Shown: positions 56,380 through 62,496 of the stretch, piece after piece
Layout: every line of letters begins with the position of its first letter
How positions within the stretch are numbered: the first letter of the stretch is position 1
Assembly: GCA_937868765.1 (NCBI GenBank)
Contig: CALMNL010000010.1
Coordinates: forward strand, 62,001 to 126,000
Direction: 5' to 3'
Source of the DNA: an uncultured Desulfatitalea sp.
GTDB lineage: Bacteria; Desulfobacterota; Desulfobacteria; Desulfobacterales; Desulfosarcinaceae
Length of the DNA stretch: 64,000 bases
Position numbers and translations under genes: made by a program
The notes under the pieces: generated by a model
The model's input: only the letters and a program-made list of their open reading frames with translations
What the model was told of the DNA's origin: nothing
Databases searched by the model: none

Positions 56380-56428
56380 GCTCGCACGAACTTGCATATA
56401 GGCATTGGATGAAATTGGAAGCCGCATC

Positions 56429-57160
56429 ATGTCTATAACTGCCGAACCGAGCAAAACCGTTCTCGTCATCGAAGACGATCCGAACACCATGGCCCTGGTG
56501 GCACTCTATCTGGAACGTGAAGGGTTTCGGCCGCTGACGGCGGGCGATGGGCAAAAGGGATTGGAATTGGCCGAACGCCATCGACCCGACTTGGTGATCC
56601 TCGATCTGATGCTGCCCCGCATGGATGGCTGGGAAGTCTGCCGCCGTCTCCGGCTGCATGGAGAGGTGCCGGTGATCATGCTCACCGCCCGGGGGGAAGA
56701 GATCGACCGGGTGGCCGGCTTGACCCTGGGAGCCGACGACTATGTGGTCAAGCCCTTCAGCCCCCGCGAACTGGTGGCCAGGGTCCAGGCTGTCTTGCGC
56801 CGCATACCGCGGGCGGCGGCAGCCAGGCGCAAGGTGCTCACCCACGGCGATCTGTGGTTGGATCTGGAAAACCGGCGCCTGAACATCGCCGGAAAGCCGG
56901 TAGAACTCACGCCCCATGAATATGCCCTGTTGGAGACCCTGGCTGCGAGACCCGGCCGCACTTTCACCCGCAATGAGCTGCTGGCGCGTCTCTATCCCGA
57001 TGGCGGAACGGTGGTGATCGACCGCGTGGTGGATGTACACATCGGCAAGCTGAGACAGAAAATCGAGTCACGGCCCGCTGCCCCGCGCTACATCATCACG
57101 GTGCGCGGCGTCGGCTATCGTTTTGCCGACAGCGGACCCCTGGCCGATGGGGAGGCGTGA
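56429..57160 (+). CDS. OmpR/PhoB-type response regulator
   Basis: A 243-residue regulator with a receiver (VIEDDP pocket, VILDLMLPRMDG phosphoacceptor near 57, KPFSPRELVARV) and a C-terminal winged helix (about 135-232; LTPHEYALLETLAARPGRTF; VDVHIGKLRQKIE; YIITVRGVGYRF). Such regulators bind tandem 11-bp repeats as dimers. ATG 56429 is preceded by GGAAG; an upstream TTG at 56405 is less likely. The stop overlaps the sensor kinase start (TGATG). A matching 11-bp repeat array follows the kinase gene, so msrAB and the selenoprotein are the likely targets. Confidence 0.93.
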   Translation: MSITAEPSKTVLVIEDDPNTMALVALYLEREGFRPLTAGDGQKGLELAERHRPDLVILDLMLPRMDGWEVCRRLRLHGEVPVIMLTARGEEIDRVAGLTLGADDYVVKPFSPRELVARVQAVLRRIPRAAAARRKVLTHGDLWLDLENRRLNIAGKPVELTPHEYALLETLAARPGRTFTRNELLARLYPDGGTVVIDRVVDVHIGKLRQKIESRPAAPRYIITVRGVGYRFADSGPLADGEA

Positions 57161-58242
57161 TGCGCCGCTACCTGATCCTCAAGCTCCTGGCCATCACCCT
57201 CGTGGTGCTCGTCTTCGTGGTGGCGGTGGTCTGGCTGGCCATCGATACCCTGGCGGCCGGCTATTTCGTCACCCTCATGGAAAAATATCACATTTCGCCC
57301 AAACCGGCCCACGCCATGTTCGTGGAGGCCGTGCATCGCTACCTGCTGTGGGCTTTCGTCGGCGCCGTCCTGCTGGCCGCGATCCTGAGTTATCTATTGA
57401 TGCGGCGGGTGTTGGCACCCCTGACCCGCATGACCCGCCTCAGCCGCGATATCGCCGCCGGGGATTTCAGCGTGCGTGCGCCAGCTGGCCGCCGGGATGA
57501 GGTCGGTCAGCTGGCGGCGGCTTTCAATCAAATGGCCGCCGACCTGGCCAAGCTCGAAAACCTGCGCCGCAAGTTGATGATCGACGTGGCCCACGAACTG
57601 CGCACCCCTTTGACCAACATCCGCGGGTACCTGGAAGCCATCGGCGACGGCGTGGTGACCCCATCGCCCGATACCATCGCTCTGCTGCAAAGCGAAACCA
57701 TGCGTCTGGTCACGCTGGTGGAAGATGTGCTGCAGCTGGCCAGGGCCGACGTGGCCAGGGGGCGGCTGCAGTTGGCGGACATGGATATTCGCGCGGCCGT
57801 GGAAAACACCGTGGCGATATTTCAGCCAGGGTTCGCGCACAAGGACATATCTGTGCAGGTGACGGCGCCGCCGGGCAACTTGACCCTCACCGCGGATCCC
57901 AATGCCATGGCGCGCGTTCTGCGCAATCTCACCGACAATGCCGTTCAATACACCCCGCGGGAAGGGTTGGTGGCCATCGATCTGATTGAGAAAGATGGAC
58001 GGGTGGTCATCCAATACAGCAACCCGGCCGGCGAGCTTCTGCCCGAGGATCTGCCGTTCCTTTTCGAGCGCTTCTACCGCGGCGAAAAATCACGATCACG
58101 CGAGCATGGCGGCGCCGGCATCGGTCTGGCCCTGGTAAAGGAGCTGGTGGAAGCCCATGGCGGTGCAGTGGGCGCAGAGCTGACCAACGGCCGGATTGTG
58201 CTCCGCATCGTCCTTCCCACCAGCGCCCATCCTGCTGCCTGA
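57160..58242 (+). CDS. membrane sensor histidine kinase (BaeS-like)
   Basis: A 360-residue kinase partner of the upstream regulator. Two transmembrane helices (about 7-30 and 65-85) enclose a short periplasmic loop of about 35 residues, then HAMP (LAPLTRMTRLSRDIAAGDF), HisKA (LMIDVAHELRTPLTNIRGYL, His near 147) and HATPase_c (NLTDNAVQYTP; N box, FERFYRGEKSR, GGAGIGLALV). The small periplasmic part argues for sensing within the membrane or through a partner. GGGGAGG lies upstream and the start overlaps the regulator stop. Confidence 0.93.
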   Translation: MRRYLILKLLAITLVVLVFVVAVVWLAIDTLAAGYFVTLMEKYHISPKPAHAMFVEAVHRYLLWAFVGAVLLAAILSYLLMRRVLAPLTRMTRLSRDIAAGDFSVRAPAGRRDEVGQLAAAFNQMAADLAKLENLRRKLMIDVAHELRTPLTNIRGYLEAIGDGVVTPSPDTIALLQSETMRLVTLVEDVLQLARADVARGRLQLADMDIRAAVENTVAIFQPGFAHKDISVQVTAPPGNLTLTADPNAMARVLRNLTDNAVQYTPREGLVAIDLIEKDGRVVIQYSNPAGELLPEDLPFLFERFYRGEKSRSREHGGAGIGLALVKELVEAHGGAVGAELTNGRIVLRIVLPTSAHPAA

Positions 58243-58303: not shown

Positions 58304-58362
58304 CACCCCAAGCACAGTGCACGGCGCCATTAACGAGCGCCGGAAATCAACGGGAGGTGCTT

Positions 58363-59463
58363 ATGAAACTAATGACCCTATCAGCAATCATTTTGGTTCT
58401 TATAACCTTCACTTATTTTGCGGTATTCGCCGGAAACGACCTGCCAGGCAACATGGAGAGGGCACCGGCGCCGGACGGGAAAACCAAAAGTGCGGTTTTC
58501 GCAGGCGGCTGCTTCTGGTGCACGGAATCGGATTTCGAAAAAGTACCGGGCGTGATCGACGCCATCTCCGGATACACCGGCGGCAATGTGGCCAATCCCA
58601 GCTACGAGCAAGTCTCCGCCGGCGGTACCGGGCATGTCGAAGCCGTGAAGGTCATTTACGATCCCACGAAAGTGGACTATGCCGCGCTGCTGGATTACTT
58701 CTGGCATCATGTGAACCCCACCGACGCCGGCGGACAGTTCGTAGACCGAGGCTCCCAGTATCGCAGCGTGATTTTCTATGCCAACGAGGAGGAGCACCGT
58801 CTCGCCGAGGCATCCAAGCAGAAGTTGGCCGCCTCGGGACGCTTTGACAAGCCCATCGTTACCGAGATCCTGCCGCTGGGGCCCTTCTATGCGGCCGAGG
58901 CCTACCATCAGGATTACTATAAGAAAAATCCGCTGCGCTATCGGTATTACCGGTACGGGTCCGGGCGCGATCAGTTCCTTGAAAAGACCTGGCATGCCCA
59001 AGCGGCCGAACAGACCGCTGCGCGGGCCTACCAGGGGGCCGACGCAACGAGCCTGCGTCAACGCTTGACGCCGTTGCAGTACACCGTGACCCAGGAGGAG
59101 GGCACCGAACCGCCCTTCGACAATCTCTACTGGAACAACCACAAAGAGGGCATCTATGTGGATATCGTCTCGGGCGAGCCGCTGTTCAGCTCCACCGACA
59201 AATATGATTCCGGTACGGGTTGGCCGAGCTTCACCCGGCCCCTGGAACCGGCCAACATCGTCGAGAAGCGCGATCACAGTTTCTTCATGACACGCACCGA
59301 AGTTCGCAGCAAGCATGCCAACTCGCACTTAGGCCATGTATTCACCGATGGCCCCAAACCCACCGGCTTGCGCTACTGCATCAATTCGGCCGCCTTGCGG
59401 TTCATCCCCAAGGAAGATCTGAAAAAGGAAGGCTTTGCTCAGTACGAACGACTGTTTCAGTAA
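58363..59463 (+). CDS. msrAB: secreted MsrA-MsrB methionine sulfoxide reductase fusion
   Basis: A 366-residue envelope enzyme. A signal/anchor helix ([18 protein letters not shown]) is followed by MsrA (about 45-195; catalytic [26 protein letters not shown]) and, after a linker, MsrB (about 230-360; [24 protein letters not shown], catalytic Cys in [11 protein letters not shown]). MsrA and MsrB reduce S- and R-methionine sulfoxide. The MsrB half lacks the two zinc CxxC motifs (GEPLFSS in place of the first). GGGAGG is 6 bases before ATG 58363. The gene lies directly behind the 11-bp repeats and is followed 31 bases later by the selenoprotein gene. Confidence 0.95.
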
Positions 59464-59494: not shown

Positions 59495-59785
59495 ATGAAA
59501 ATGTTTGTCTGCGGTTTCCTGGCCATATGGGCGACGGTCGTGGCGGTCTGGGGCGTAACTCCGGTCCAGGCCGGGTCTCTGGCGGAAATTACCTTTTACG
59601 TCCAGTGATACGATGTAGGCAAAGCCGCCCTGGAAGGGCTGGACGGTGTAAAACGCGTAACCCGCGGTTTTAGCGGTTCCCGGGAGGTCAATACCGTCAC
59701 GTACGACCCGGAAGTGATTGCTCCCCCGCAGATGGCGTCGGCTTTGAAAGATGCCGGCACTTATATCGGAACCGTCGAACCCTAA
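59495..59785 (+). CDS. HMA-like selenoprotein (in-frame UGA, Sec38)
   Basis: A 96-residue protein if the UGA at 59606-59608 is read as selenocysteine. Residues 1-26 form a signal peptide (MKMFVCGFLAIWATVVAVWG then VTPVQA). The mature part starts GSLAEITFYVQ-U-YDVGKAALEGLDGVKRV and ends with VTYDPEVIAPPQMASALKDA and GTYIGTVEP: the beta-alpha-beta pattern of heavy-metal-associated (MerP-like) domains, with Sec at the first Cys of MxCxxC and Val at the second. The frame is open on both sides of the UGA, and AAAGGAG lies 8 bases before ATG. A stem-loop follows the UGA. It is probably cotranscribed with msrAB. Without Sec, only 37 residues would be made. Confidence 0.78.
59606..59650 (+). other. 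candidate bacterial SECIS element
   Basis: Beginning at the in-frame UGA. GCCC (59627-59630) pairs with GGGC (59636-59639) around a UGGAA loop; the stem extends through CC/GG with a single bulged U (59640). A loop with GG about 24 bases after the UGA and a bulged U are general features of bacterial SECIS hairpins that bind SelB. Confidence 0.5.
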
Positions 59786-60163
59786 AGCATCCGGCTGGAG
59801 GAAATGCGAAACGTTCGGCGACATCTATCAAAAAAGAGAAAGGAAGGTGTGCCATGACAACCATGAAGCAGTACATCCGTAAGCGCAGGCTCAGCGATAT
59901 CGTCCTGGGCGATATCGATGTTTCGCTGCCGATGCGGGATATCTTCCGGTAGGAATGGTTCAACCTTTTTCCCTTCACGGTCGAGCACTCCGACTGATTC
60001 CATTGCGCGGAACAGTTCTCCAACTCTCTTTTTTTCGATCGGATCAATCAAACAGAGGACGACCGCTTCACCTTCGGAGACCAAACCGCTGCCGGCCGGC
60101 GCCGGGCTGAAGGATAGCAAGCACAGTCTCTTCAATACGCCCTGAAGCAAAAAATAAAAACAG
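59786..60163. other. region between selenoprotein and cobalamin operon
   Basis: About 380 bases, less GC-rich than the flanks. A 32-codon frame at 59854-59952 (MTTMKQYIRKRRLSDIVLGD...) has a very good AGGAAGG site; its YIRKRRLSD start resembles an AraC-family helix, so it may be a gene remnant or a true small protein. On the minus strand an open frame (59782-60180) gives a partly protein-like sequence (VVLCLIDPIEKKRVGELFRA), with no identified family or ribosome-binding site. Two direct GCGATATCG copies lie at 59894 and 59909. Confidence 0.4.
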
Positions 60164-60192
60164 TTGACCGCCTGCTTCAAATTCTCTATATG
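60164..60192 (+). promoter_or_regulatory. sigma70 promoter of the cobalamin operon
   Basis: TTGACC (60164-60169), a 17-base spacer and TATATG (60187-60192), ending just before the riboswitch aptamer begins. Confidence 0.7.
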
Positions 60193-60194
60193 GG

Positions 60195-60385
60195 CACCAG
60201 TTCAGGTGCCCATACGGGCTCAATAGGGAATCCCGTGCGAATCGGGAGCGGTCCCGCCGCTGTAACCCCGGCCTCCTGAGCAGGAGGCAACCTTCGCGGC
60301 CGTTGCGTGCCACTTTTCCGCCTCAGCGGAATGGGAAGGCCGCCGCGAAGGCGGGAGAGCCAGAAGACCTGCCTGCAACAGTTGT
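60195..60385 (+). promoter_or_regulatory. cobalamin riboswitch
   Basis: The aptamer contains the conserved blocks in order: CAGGTGCC, AATAGGGAATCCCGTG, GAATCGGGAGCGG, CCCGCCGCTGTAACC, a long peripheral arm with several paired segments, and GAGCCAGAAGACCTGCC at about 60357-60373. These are the signatures of the B12-box riboswitch. Binding of adenosylcobalamin should favour the terminator at 60451 and shut down cbiK and the importer. Confidence 0.92.
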
Positions 60386-60450
60386 GGTTGCGCTGCGCGG
60401 TAACGCAGGCAGCCGCGTACATACAGAATTGGGCCTATAAACTGGGTAAA

Positions 60451-60484
60451 GCCCTTCAAGCATTGTCGCTTGAAGGGCTTTTTT
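60451..60484 (+). terminator. intrinsic terminator, riboswitch expression platform
   Basis: An 11-bp perfect stem (GCCCTTCAAGC at 60451-60461; GCTTGAAGGGC at 60468-60478), a 6-base loop, and a run of six T residues. It lies between the aptamer and cbiK, as expected for riboswitch-controlled attenuation. Confidence 0.88.
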
Positions 60485-60559
60485 ATTGGCACAGCGCCGC
60501 GGGCGGGAGCGGCTTTACCCGATTTTGGGGAGAACACTTTTAAGCCGGGGAGAGAAAAA

Positions 60560-61462
60560 ATGACGAGAAGCAAATGGGTAATTGGCGTCGTTGCGCTGTG
60601 TGTGTTCTGGGCCATTGGTACCATCGCACCGGGCATGGCCGTGGGAGGCGCAGCCCATGGCGGGGAGGAACATAAATCGCCTAAGGTGGGCATCCTGCTG
60701 GTGGCCTTCGGCTCCAGCGAAACCTCGGCCCAGGTTTCCTTCGAAAACATCCAGCGCAAGGTGACGGCCGCCTTTCCAGCGGCCGACGTGCGTTGGGCGT
60801 ATACCTCCCATGTCATCCGCGCCAAGCTGGCCGACCGGGGCAAAGCATTGGATTCGCCGACCCTGGCCCTGGCCCGTCTGCAGGATGAAGGCTTCACCCG
60901 CGTGGTGGTGCAGTCGCTGCATACCATCGCCGGGGCCGAATACCAGGACCTTGAGCGCACCGTGAACGGATTCAAGGCCATGGAGGCTTTCCAGAAAATC
61001 GTGCTGGGCGATCCCCTCATGGTCACCCGGGCGGATGTGGCCGCCGTCGTGACCGCCATCACCGGCATTATACCCAAAGAACGCAAGCAGAGCGATGCGG
61101 TGGTGCTCATGGGCCACGGCACCTGCCATCCGGCCAGCGCTTATTACAGCGCCCTGGCTTTCCAACTGCAGCTGAAAGATGCCAACATCTTCCTGGGCAC
61201 GGTTGAAGGCTTTCCAGATATGGCGCTGGTTCAGAATCAGATGCAGGCGCGGCACATCCAAAAAGCCTTCTTGATGCCGTTCATGTCGGTGGCCGGCGAG
61301 CATGCGAAGAATGACATGGCCGGCGACGACTCCGATTCCTGGAAATCGCTTTTTTCCAAAGCCGGGATCGAGTGTGTGCCGGTGATGAAAGGCACCGCCG
61401 AGTATGATGCTTTCGTGGGCATCTGGGTGGGGCATATCAGGTCCGCGATGGAAGGTATTTAA
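60560..61462 (+). CDS. cbiK: secreted CbiK-type sirohydrochlorin cobaltochelatase
   Basis: A 300-residue class II chelatase with an N-terminal export signal (VIGVVALCVFWAIGTIA, cleavage after about residue 28-33), as in the periplasmic CbiKP of Desulfovibrio. Family metal-binding residues are present: His in MGHGTCHP (H186), Glu in GTVEGFP (E216) and His in AGEHAKND (H248). CbiK inserts Co2+ into sirohydrochlorin; the periplasmic forms are thought to act in metal or haem handling instead. GGGGAGAG is upstream of ATG 60560. It is the first gene behind the riboswitch and runs into the permease gene, with a two-base gap. Confidence 0.93.
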   Translation: MTRSKWVIGVVALCVFWAIGTIAPGMAVGGAAHGGEEHKSPKVGILLVAFGSSETSAQVSFENIQRKVTAAFPAADVRWAYTSHVIRAKLADRGKALDSPTLALARLQDEGFTRVVVQSLHTIAGAEYQDLERTVNGFKAMEAFQKIVLGDPLMVTRADVAAVVTAITGIIPKERKQSDAVVLMGHGTCHPASAYYSALAFQLQLKDANIFLGTVEGFPDMALVQNQMQARHIQKAFLMPFMSVAGEHAKNDMAGDDSDSWKSLFSKAGIECVPVMKGTAEYDAFVGIWVGHIRSAMEGI

Positions 61463-61464
61463 AC

Positions 61465-62496
61465 ATGCGCCGGGCGCCCTTCGGATGGATCATCGGGGGA
61501 CTGGCCCTGCTGCTGGCGGCGGAAGTCATTGTGGCCGCGGGCAGCGGGTTTCTTGAGATTCCCTTTAAGGAGGTGATCCGGATTCTGCTGGCCCAATTGA
61601 GCGGGACCGGGAGTTCGATTTCCCTTCCAAGGGAGTTGCCGCCGGTGGTGGTCATGGATGTACGTCTTCCGCGCATAATCACCGCGGCCCTGGTGGGCGG
61701 CGGGTTGGCGGCTTCGGGCGCCGTATTCCAAGGCATCCTGCGCAACCCTTTGGCCGATTCCTACACCCTGGGCGTTTCGGCCGGCGCTGCATTTGGCGCC
61801 GCACTGGCGCTGCTGGCCGACTTCACCCTGCTGGGGGTCTGGTCGGTGCCGGCCCTGGCCTTTGCCGGGGCCGTGGCCACGCTGCTGGCGGTCATCGGCC
61901 TGGCCGGAGCCGGAGCGGAGGGCGATTTTTCCTCCAGCAACCTGATTCTCTCCGGCATCATCGTGGCCGCCATCCTCTCGGCCGGGGTGAGCTTCATCAA
62001 GTATTTGGCCGACGAGCAGGTGGGGATCATCATCTTCTGGCTCATGGGCAGTTTCGCTTCCAAAGGATGGGGGGACGCCGGCCTGGTGGCGGTGGCGGTG
62101 GGCCTGGGGGGTGCGCTTTTCTGCTTCTTCAGCCGGGAACTCAATCTGCTGGCTCTGGGCAGCCGCACCGCAGGATCCCTGGGGGTCTCGCCGCGCAAGG
62201 CCGCGCTGGTGCTGCTGGTGGGGGCCTCCCTGGTGGCCGCGGTATGCGTGGCCGTCTCCGGTATCATCGGTTTCATGGGGCTGCTGGTGCCCCACATGGT
62301 ACGTTTTGTGACCGGCCCCGACAACCGTCGCCTGATCCCGGCATCGCTGTTGGCGGGTGCTTGTCTGCTGCTGTGCGCCGACACGGTGACCCGGGCCGTG
62401 CTGCCCCGGGAGATCCCCATCGGGGTGATCACGGCCCTCATCGGCGGTCCCTTTTTTTGCGTGATTTATCGAAGACGAATGCAGCCATGGAAATAA
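61465..62496 (+). CDS. btuC: BtuC/FecCD-type ABC transporter permease
   Basis: A 343-residue inner-membrane protein with about ten helices. Diagnostic segments are LPRIITAALVGGGLAASGAV, FQGILRNPLADSYTLGVSAG (the conserved RNPLAxP-type loop), FWLMGSF and SGIIGFMGLLVPHMVR. It forms the channel of a cobalamin or siderophore importer; behind a cobalamin riboswitch, a corrinoid or related substrate is most likely. The start follows cbiK after two bases. The last helix is followed by a short basic tail. Confidence 0.92.
   Translation: MRRAPFGWIIGGLALLLAAEVIVAAGSGFLEIPFKEVIRILLAQLSGTGSSISLPRELPPVVVMDVRLPRIITAALVGGGLAASGAVFQGILRNPLADSYTLGVSAGAAFGAALALLADFTLLGVWSVPALAFAGAVATLLAVIGLAGAGAEGDFSSSNLILSGIIVAAILSAGVSFIKYLADEQVGIIIFWLMGSFASKGWGDAGLVAVAVGLGGALFCFFSRELNLLALGSRTAGSLGVSPRKAALVLLVGASLVAAVCVAVSGIIGFMGLLVPHMVRFVTGPDNRRLIPASLLAGACLLLCADTVTRAVLPREIPIGVITALIGGPFFCVIYRRRMQPWK

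Follow-up and report, generated by a model that had tools for sequence, protein, structure and literature searches.

A conserved, probably exported HMA-like selenoprotein of sulfate-reducing and related bacteria, and its likely partnership with envelope methionine sulfoxide reductases

The window, by which we mean the whole 64,000-nucleotide stretch of Desulfatitalea DNA analysed here, carries on its forward strand a short gene (59495–59785) in which an in-frame UGA codon (59606–59608) looks, from comparison across genomes, like a conserved sense codon specifying selenocysteine (Sec) in a real selenoprotein. The protein probably acts as a periplasmic selenol redox partner of envelope methionine sulfoxide reductase (Msr) enzymes. 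The gene begins with ATG at 59495, directly preceded by an AGGAG ribosome-binding site, and ends with TAA at 59783–59785. Read in the normal way it stops after residue 37; with TGA as Sec it encodes 96 residues, comprising a leader-like N-terminus (approximately residues 1–26), a ferredoxin-like domain (approximately 29–94) and Sec38. This 96-residue product had been proposed in an earlier, sequence-only reading, and its coordinates and frame are as described there. Upstream on the same strand lie a gene for an MsrAB with a leader (58357–59463), taken here as the partner gene, and two recurring neighbours, a HAMP sensor histidine kinase (57157–58242) and an OmpR-type response regulator (56405–57160).

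A search of 60 genomes, the source genome included, gave matches in nine, each with exactly one TGA within the match. A first contig scan with the single window protein as query recovered no relative. With the nine-row alignment as query, 43 loci were found in the genome contig collection and further ones in 395 genomes of the phylum, leaving a family set of 51 loci after duplicates were taken out. The 43 loci span Desulfobacterota lineages, SAR324, Thermodesulfovibrionia, Olavius symbionts and a cultured isolate, Desulfospira joergensenii DSM 10085. The homologues read on past position 38, with TGA in 48 of the 51 loci, Cys in two (L056 and L062) and Ser in one (L072). Because other genomes carry the same TGA, a sequencing error in the window is very unlikely. 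The family consensus is FYVxUYDVGKAALEGLxGVKKVxxGF...REINTVxYDP. The Glu of REIN, which is Glu64 in the window protein (codon 59684–59686, forward strand), is invariant in 51/51 loci, and Asp40, which follows the UY pair, is kept in 49/51, being replaced by Asn in L045 and Ser in L051. Downstream of the UGA, dN is lower than dS in all eight pairs tested; the window and L021 give a dS of 0.82 and a dN of 0.15, and the narrowest gap is that between L065 and L068 (0.56 and 0.22). A hydrophobic stretch precedes the domain in 49/51 loci, the exceptions being L056, which lies at a contig end, and L069, the fusion locus taken up further on. The protein is thus probably exported, as had been suggested from the window sequence.

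Two further family loci deserve mention. One chromosome (CP070843.1) carries two copies, L023 and L025, each directly 3' of MsrA/MsrB genes. At L063, an apparently decayed copy adjoins MsrA and MsrB; its Sec motif is gone and its second half is retained.

The genome from which the window derives (5.36 Mb in 18 contigs) encodes SelA (614.5 bits), SelB (360.6 bits), SelD (386.1 bits) and tRNA-Sec (72.4 bits), all above curated cut-offs; selA, selB, selC and selD are therefore all present, and the SelD gene itself carries a TGA. Among the genomes in which Sec is replaced, SelB at a threshold of 1e-60 is absent from that of L056 (Cys), a 2.6 Mb draft, and present in those of L062 (Cys) and L072 (Ser). 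Loss of the machinery cannot, then, account for every replacement.

A bSECIS-like hairpin occupies 59619–59649 of the forward strand, with a core stem at 59627–59631/59635–59639, an apical GGA loop at 59632–59634 and a bulged U at 59640. The stem-loop with a GG loop and bulged U that had been remarked on just after the UGA is thus present, at 59627–59640. On its own, the window hairpin has a z-score of -0.27, and 70 of 200 shuffles fold as well or better. This is a point in favour of reading the UGA as a true stop, with the remaining codons as remnant sequence; significance arises only across homologues. When the sequences were folded locally, 45 of the 48 Sec forms had the apical loop at UGA+25/26, a G being among the first two bases of that loop; the other three (L035, L048 and L049) choose another fold. 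The mean energy of UGA+18 to +37 is -10.8 kcal/mol, as against -4.0 +/- 0.39 kcal/mol in 300 codon-usage-matched synonymous sets, the lowest of which reaches -5.2 kcal/mol. Since none of the 300 sets is as stable as the observed sequences, and the sets fold far less stably overall, the hairpin is, by this comparison, under selection at the RNA level. Synonymous codon choice is extremely biased within it: GGG encodes Gly48 in 42 of 46 Gly codons, against a usage of 0.20 in neighbouring ORFs, and GCC and CTG are used in 44/48 and 47/48, respectively. Where Cys or Ser replaces Sec, the hairpin is weak (-4.8, -4.2 and -2.1 kcal/mol). At pair (23,31), U-A replaces C-G in L053 and L060, with Glu replacing Gly48; the rest of the stem variation is mostly one-sided or pair-breaking. 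Set against this synonymous-site selection, the excess of dS beyond the UGA, the existence of Cys homologues and the Sec machinery in the genome, a true stop is hardly credible. The claim that this is a selenoprotein gene holds up on the same four grounds, with conservation of the TGA taken alongside the Cys homologues.

The nine-row alignment gives a confident AlphaFold model (pLDDT 96–98 by block over residues 31–90), with strands at 30–36, 52–60, 63–70 and 90–93 and helices at 39–46 and 77–87. Sec lies at the start of helix 1 and the invariant Glu in strand 3. The best Foldseek matches are ATP7B and MerP (E 4e-4, TMt 0.76–0.78; TMt 0.78 for MerP 1osd), which bears out the HMA/MerP-like fold assigned earlier. 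The first MsrA match (6yev) falls below the HMA domains, at rank 32 (TMq 0.54, rmsd 5.1). A sequence search of the PDB likewise gives MerP as the best match (9.5e-4), with MsrA chains from 0.055 onward. Profile comparison by hhalign gives a probability of 97.7 for the family against HMA (6 sequences) and 97.1 against MsrA (36 sequences), with 93.2 for MsrA against HMA. In these alignments Sec falls on the second Cys of the HMA CxxC motif, the position of the MsrA catalytic Cys, and not on the first Cys of that motif, as had been supposed.

These fold matches would fit descent from MerP or CopZ and a role in binding or transferring soft metals (Hg, Cu, Ag), with Sec as a ligand, and 47 of 50 members also match the NF041115 UxxU model weakly (E up to 0.1). 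The domain has a single Sec with no Cys or Sec at -3, so that neither a CxxC nor a UxxU metal motif is formed and only one ligand of the pair is supplied; the acidic residues Asp40 and Glu64 are conserved instead. Neighbour clusters found in at least 4 of 44 loci comprise the kinase, the regulator, Msr, a molybdo-oxidoreductase and one opposite-strand cluster (4 loci). Among those of these common clusters that could be given an identity there is no metal gene; clusters shared by fewer loci mostly carry no annotation. The earlier suggestion of soft-metal binding by a lone selenolate gains nothing from context, and we regard it as improbable.

When the family HMM was aligned to 36 MsrA sequences with filters off and E values up to 10, so that weak matches were allowed, Sec fell on the MsrA catalytic Cys in 32 (the other four have no match there). 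The invariant Glu fell on the Glu of the GHxE motif in 36/36, with the qualification that in nine split HMMER matches the end of the first piece sets another residue opposite it. The hhalign alignment places a gap after EVN, which would undo the Glu–Glu pairing; the pairing is preferred because the strand is continuous in the predicted model. On E. coli MsrA (1ff3), profile positions 29–57 align with chain residues 84–112 at the same offset and place Glu on residue 94 (E 0.85), which we take to be Glu94 from the usual numbering. In Neisseria MsrA, Cys51 is described as the nucleophile and Glu94 as the acid (PMC6210582), and active-site residues of a Sec-containing MsrA are given in PMC4333827. 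In the preferred alignment, Sec and Glu64 stand in register with the catalytic Cys and Glu of MsrA.

One locus adds to this resemblance. In G418, a single frame (L099, 4113–4922) runs from a leader that looks Tat-like on inspection through MsrB (PF01641, 3.3e-51) to the Sec domain. The bifunctional MsrB/A model PRK05550 spans the junction, with 77–237 on 5–167 at a score below cut-off, which places the Sec domain where the model has MsrA. The fusion comes from one genome only, where the Sec domain may have an internal start of its own, and its single-sequence AlphaFold model has a pLDDT of 37, too poor to be used.

The register and the fusion speak for a miniature Sec-MsrA, a domain of about 70 residues that would reduce methionine sulfoxide or another small sulfoxide on its own, Sec being the nucleophile and Glu64 the acid. 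This is the main rival to the partner role, with metal binding ranked below it for want of one ligand and of any metal gene seen in the common neighbour clusters. It is nonetheless unlikely, as the remaining catalytic residues of MsrA are absent, the nearest fold is HMA, and a full MsrA generally exists alongside it in any case: all 13 genomes checked are above cut-off with PF01625, and a family member occurs in 12 of them (the exception is G343, and the family match in G460 is partial, at a contig end). A related and still doubtful proposition, which we rate marginally higher, is that the protein is a half-size Sec relative of MsrA that is at the same time an HMA domain, and that methionine sulfoxide chemistry can run on one Sec and one Glu. 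If true, metallochaperones and sulfoxide reductases would be joined by a living link.

The genomic context favours a partner of Msr enzymes, and the idea of a redox partner for the adjacent MsrAB fares best among the earlier proposals, given Msr neighbours and the MsrB fusion. MsrA and/or MsrB lie within 500 bp in 24/51 loci, upstream in 19 and downstream in five; as a backdrop to this linkage, the 5.36 Mb source genome has two MsrA genes. In seven further loci a molybdo-oxidoreductase, detected by tblastn using two relatives placed by Pfam in PF00174, is directly upstream. On the well-supported branches of the context tree there are at least two changes for Msr upstream, at least three for Msr downstream and at least two for the molybdo context, though resolution is low, with 24 of the 47 inner branches left open. 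The window MsrAB has three Cys in total, two in GCFWC and one in GLRYC, and its MsrB domain has a catalytic Cys with no second Cys. The partner reading is preferred because this MsrB and the Sec protein each lack a second Cys, both have leaders, and their genes are linked. Of 23 loci that show an MsrB, 18 have no Cys in that domain beyond the catalytic one; further, zinc-type cysteines are found in the other five (L059, L061, L096, the L099 fusion and L100), so that the argument from a missing resolving Cys fails in some loci.

Several observations count against the partner role. In 20/51 loci, some with short flanks, neither Msr nor a molybdo-oxidoreductase lies within 500 bp. Two of the seven molybdo-oxidoreductases were scanned, and they score nearer to sulfite dehydrogenases (SorA 1.1e-19 and 1.7e-18) than to MsrP (2e-13 and 6.7e-12), all below cut-off. 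Of the MsrA residues, the family also has none beyond Cys and Glu, and a 1-Cys Sec-MsrA deprived of its helical domain is reported to lose activity (PMC4333827).

A kinase or regulator match occurs within 1.5 kb in 26/51 loci, a count that comes from tblastn with generic families and includes L028 at 28% identity on the opposite strand. This frequency would suit a sensor that reports redox state to the nearby histidine kinase, with oxidized Sec as the signal of envelope stress. Loci such as L021, L022, L024, L037, L039 and L041 have a molybdo-oxidoreductase or Msr with no kinase found nearby, and the MsrB fusion points to an enzyme; a sensor is quite improbable.

In the preferred role as an Msr partner, the selenolate would take the oxidizing equivalent from the sulfenic acid of a neighbouring MsrB or MsrA, or from the sulfoxide directly, assisted by Glu64 and perhaps Asp40. 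The window MsrB, with its catalytic Cys only, would depend on a partner of this kind. The product on the Sec protein would be a selenenylsulfide or selenenic acid, and since this protein has no resolving Cys, a thiol donor from outside would have to reset it. Expression of the set is probably switched on by the two-component system when the envelope is under oxidative stress.

The region 3' of the selenoprotein gene contains other features. A frame at 59854–60120, with a GGAAGG-like ribosome-binding site, begins MTTMKQYIRKRRLSD and then meets TAG, TGA and TAG in turn. Pfam gives nothing for it at E values up to 0.1, and apart from its own copy the fetched loci contain no homologue. It is likely a decayed gene, recoding being the alternative. 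A cobalamin riboswitch (Rfam RF00174, 93.8 bits) at 60187–60390 is followed by genes for a CbiK-type cobaltochelatase (60470–61462) and a FecCD permease (61465–62496).

The family appears, from profile and description searches, to be an addition to the bacterial selenoprotein inventory. The window protein has no NCBIfam or Pfam match above a whole-protein cut-off. In Table 1 of a 2026 inventory of 119 families and subfamilies (PMC13188914), no row was matched to it among the entries as given there; the nearest are a "putative mercuric transport protein" (C/SxxU) and a "metal-binding protein" (UxxU). None of the nine new deep-Sep families corresponds by name or domain as described in PMC12013277, a comparison by description and not by alignment. 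No published title or abstract describing the family was found, although an earlier mention in the original Olavius selenoproteome paper is possible. HMA-like and MsrA-like features meet here in one small protein, which is spread across dozens of sulfate-reducing and related bacteria, often beside Msr genes and once fused to MsrB. We know of no electron donor for exported MsrAB in these bacteria. The family would tie selenium to the envelope repair of oxidized methionine in anaerobes.

Among known proteins, MsrA (PF01625), including the 1-Cys Sec-MsrA of Clostridium oremlandii, shares with the family the Sec/Cys position, the Glu register, the spacing to GV and G-aromatic, and YDP after strand 3. 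The family is about half the size, has no FW pocket or catalytic Tyr residues, and has UYDVG in place of the GCFW motif; PF01625 matches 11 of 50 members at E 0.1 or better (best 3.9e-4) and does not match the window protein. A Sec-MsrA with GUFWG is found in Desulfospira joergensenii (L120, G453:C1:985383–985790), with a second MsrA about 0.9 kb away (986654–987109). The MerP/HMA proteins (PF00403) resemble the family in fold, length and the AG(T)Y end, and MerP is likewise periplasmic. They differ in that the family has one Sec at the second-Cys position instead of CxxC, and two extra residues between strands 2 and 3. PF00403 matches seven of 50 members at E 0.1 or better and the window protein not at all; the window protein scores 15.8 bits with the MerP model (cut-off 92.55). 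The UxxU metal-binding selenoprotein NF041115 is also HMA-like, whereas the family has a single Sec and the UYDVG motif, and scores 26.2 bits against a cut-off of 95. One HMA-like locus, L081 (G085:C122), has two in-frame TGA codons in UxxU (MIUPAUPVV), is apparently of this known type, and places its second U on the family Sec by spacing.

The VPGUxxT Trx-like selenoprotein type 2 model, NF041383, is matched at positions of approximately 141–205 by 50/50 members (best 4.2e-11), and MsrA proteins match the same positions. The family covers only this part (34 bits against a cut-off of 275). A search for a full-length fused relative gave none above cut-off in 1 + 297 + 15 genomes. The strong hits L115–L117 were rejected as VPGU/VPGC-type Trx-like proteins covering positions 1–138 only. 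Among 12 hits, the C-terminal matches were to MsrA, Sec-MsrA or the family itself, with L123 yielding an MsrA-type sequence.

To our knowledge, neither PilB nor HprSR–MsrPQ has a Sec-containing HMA-like partner. The envelope system MsrPQ is made up of a molybdo-enzyme and a haem protein. In E. coli, HprSR controls msrPQ and so provides regulated repair of methionine sulfoxide in the envelope, as described in PMC12503329. Neisseria PilB is described as an exported MsrAB with a dedicated reductant, its N-terminal part, which indicates that an exported MsrAB can require a reductant of its own (PMC6210582). That reductant is a Trx-fold domain, unlike the HMA-like Sec protein of the family described here.
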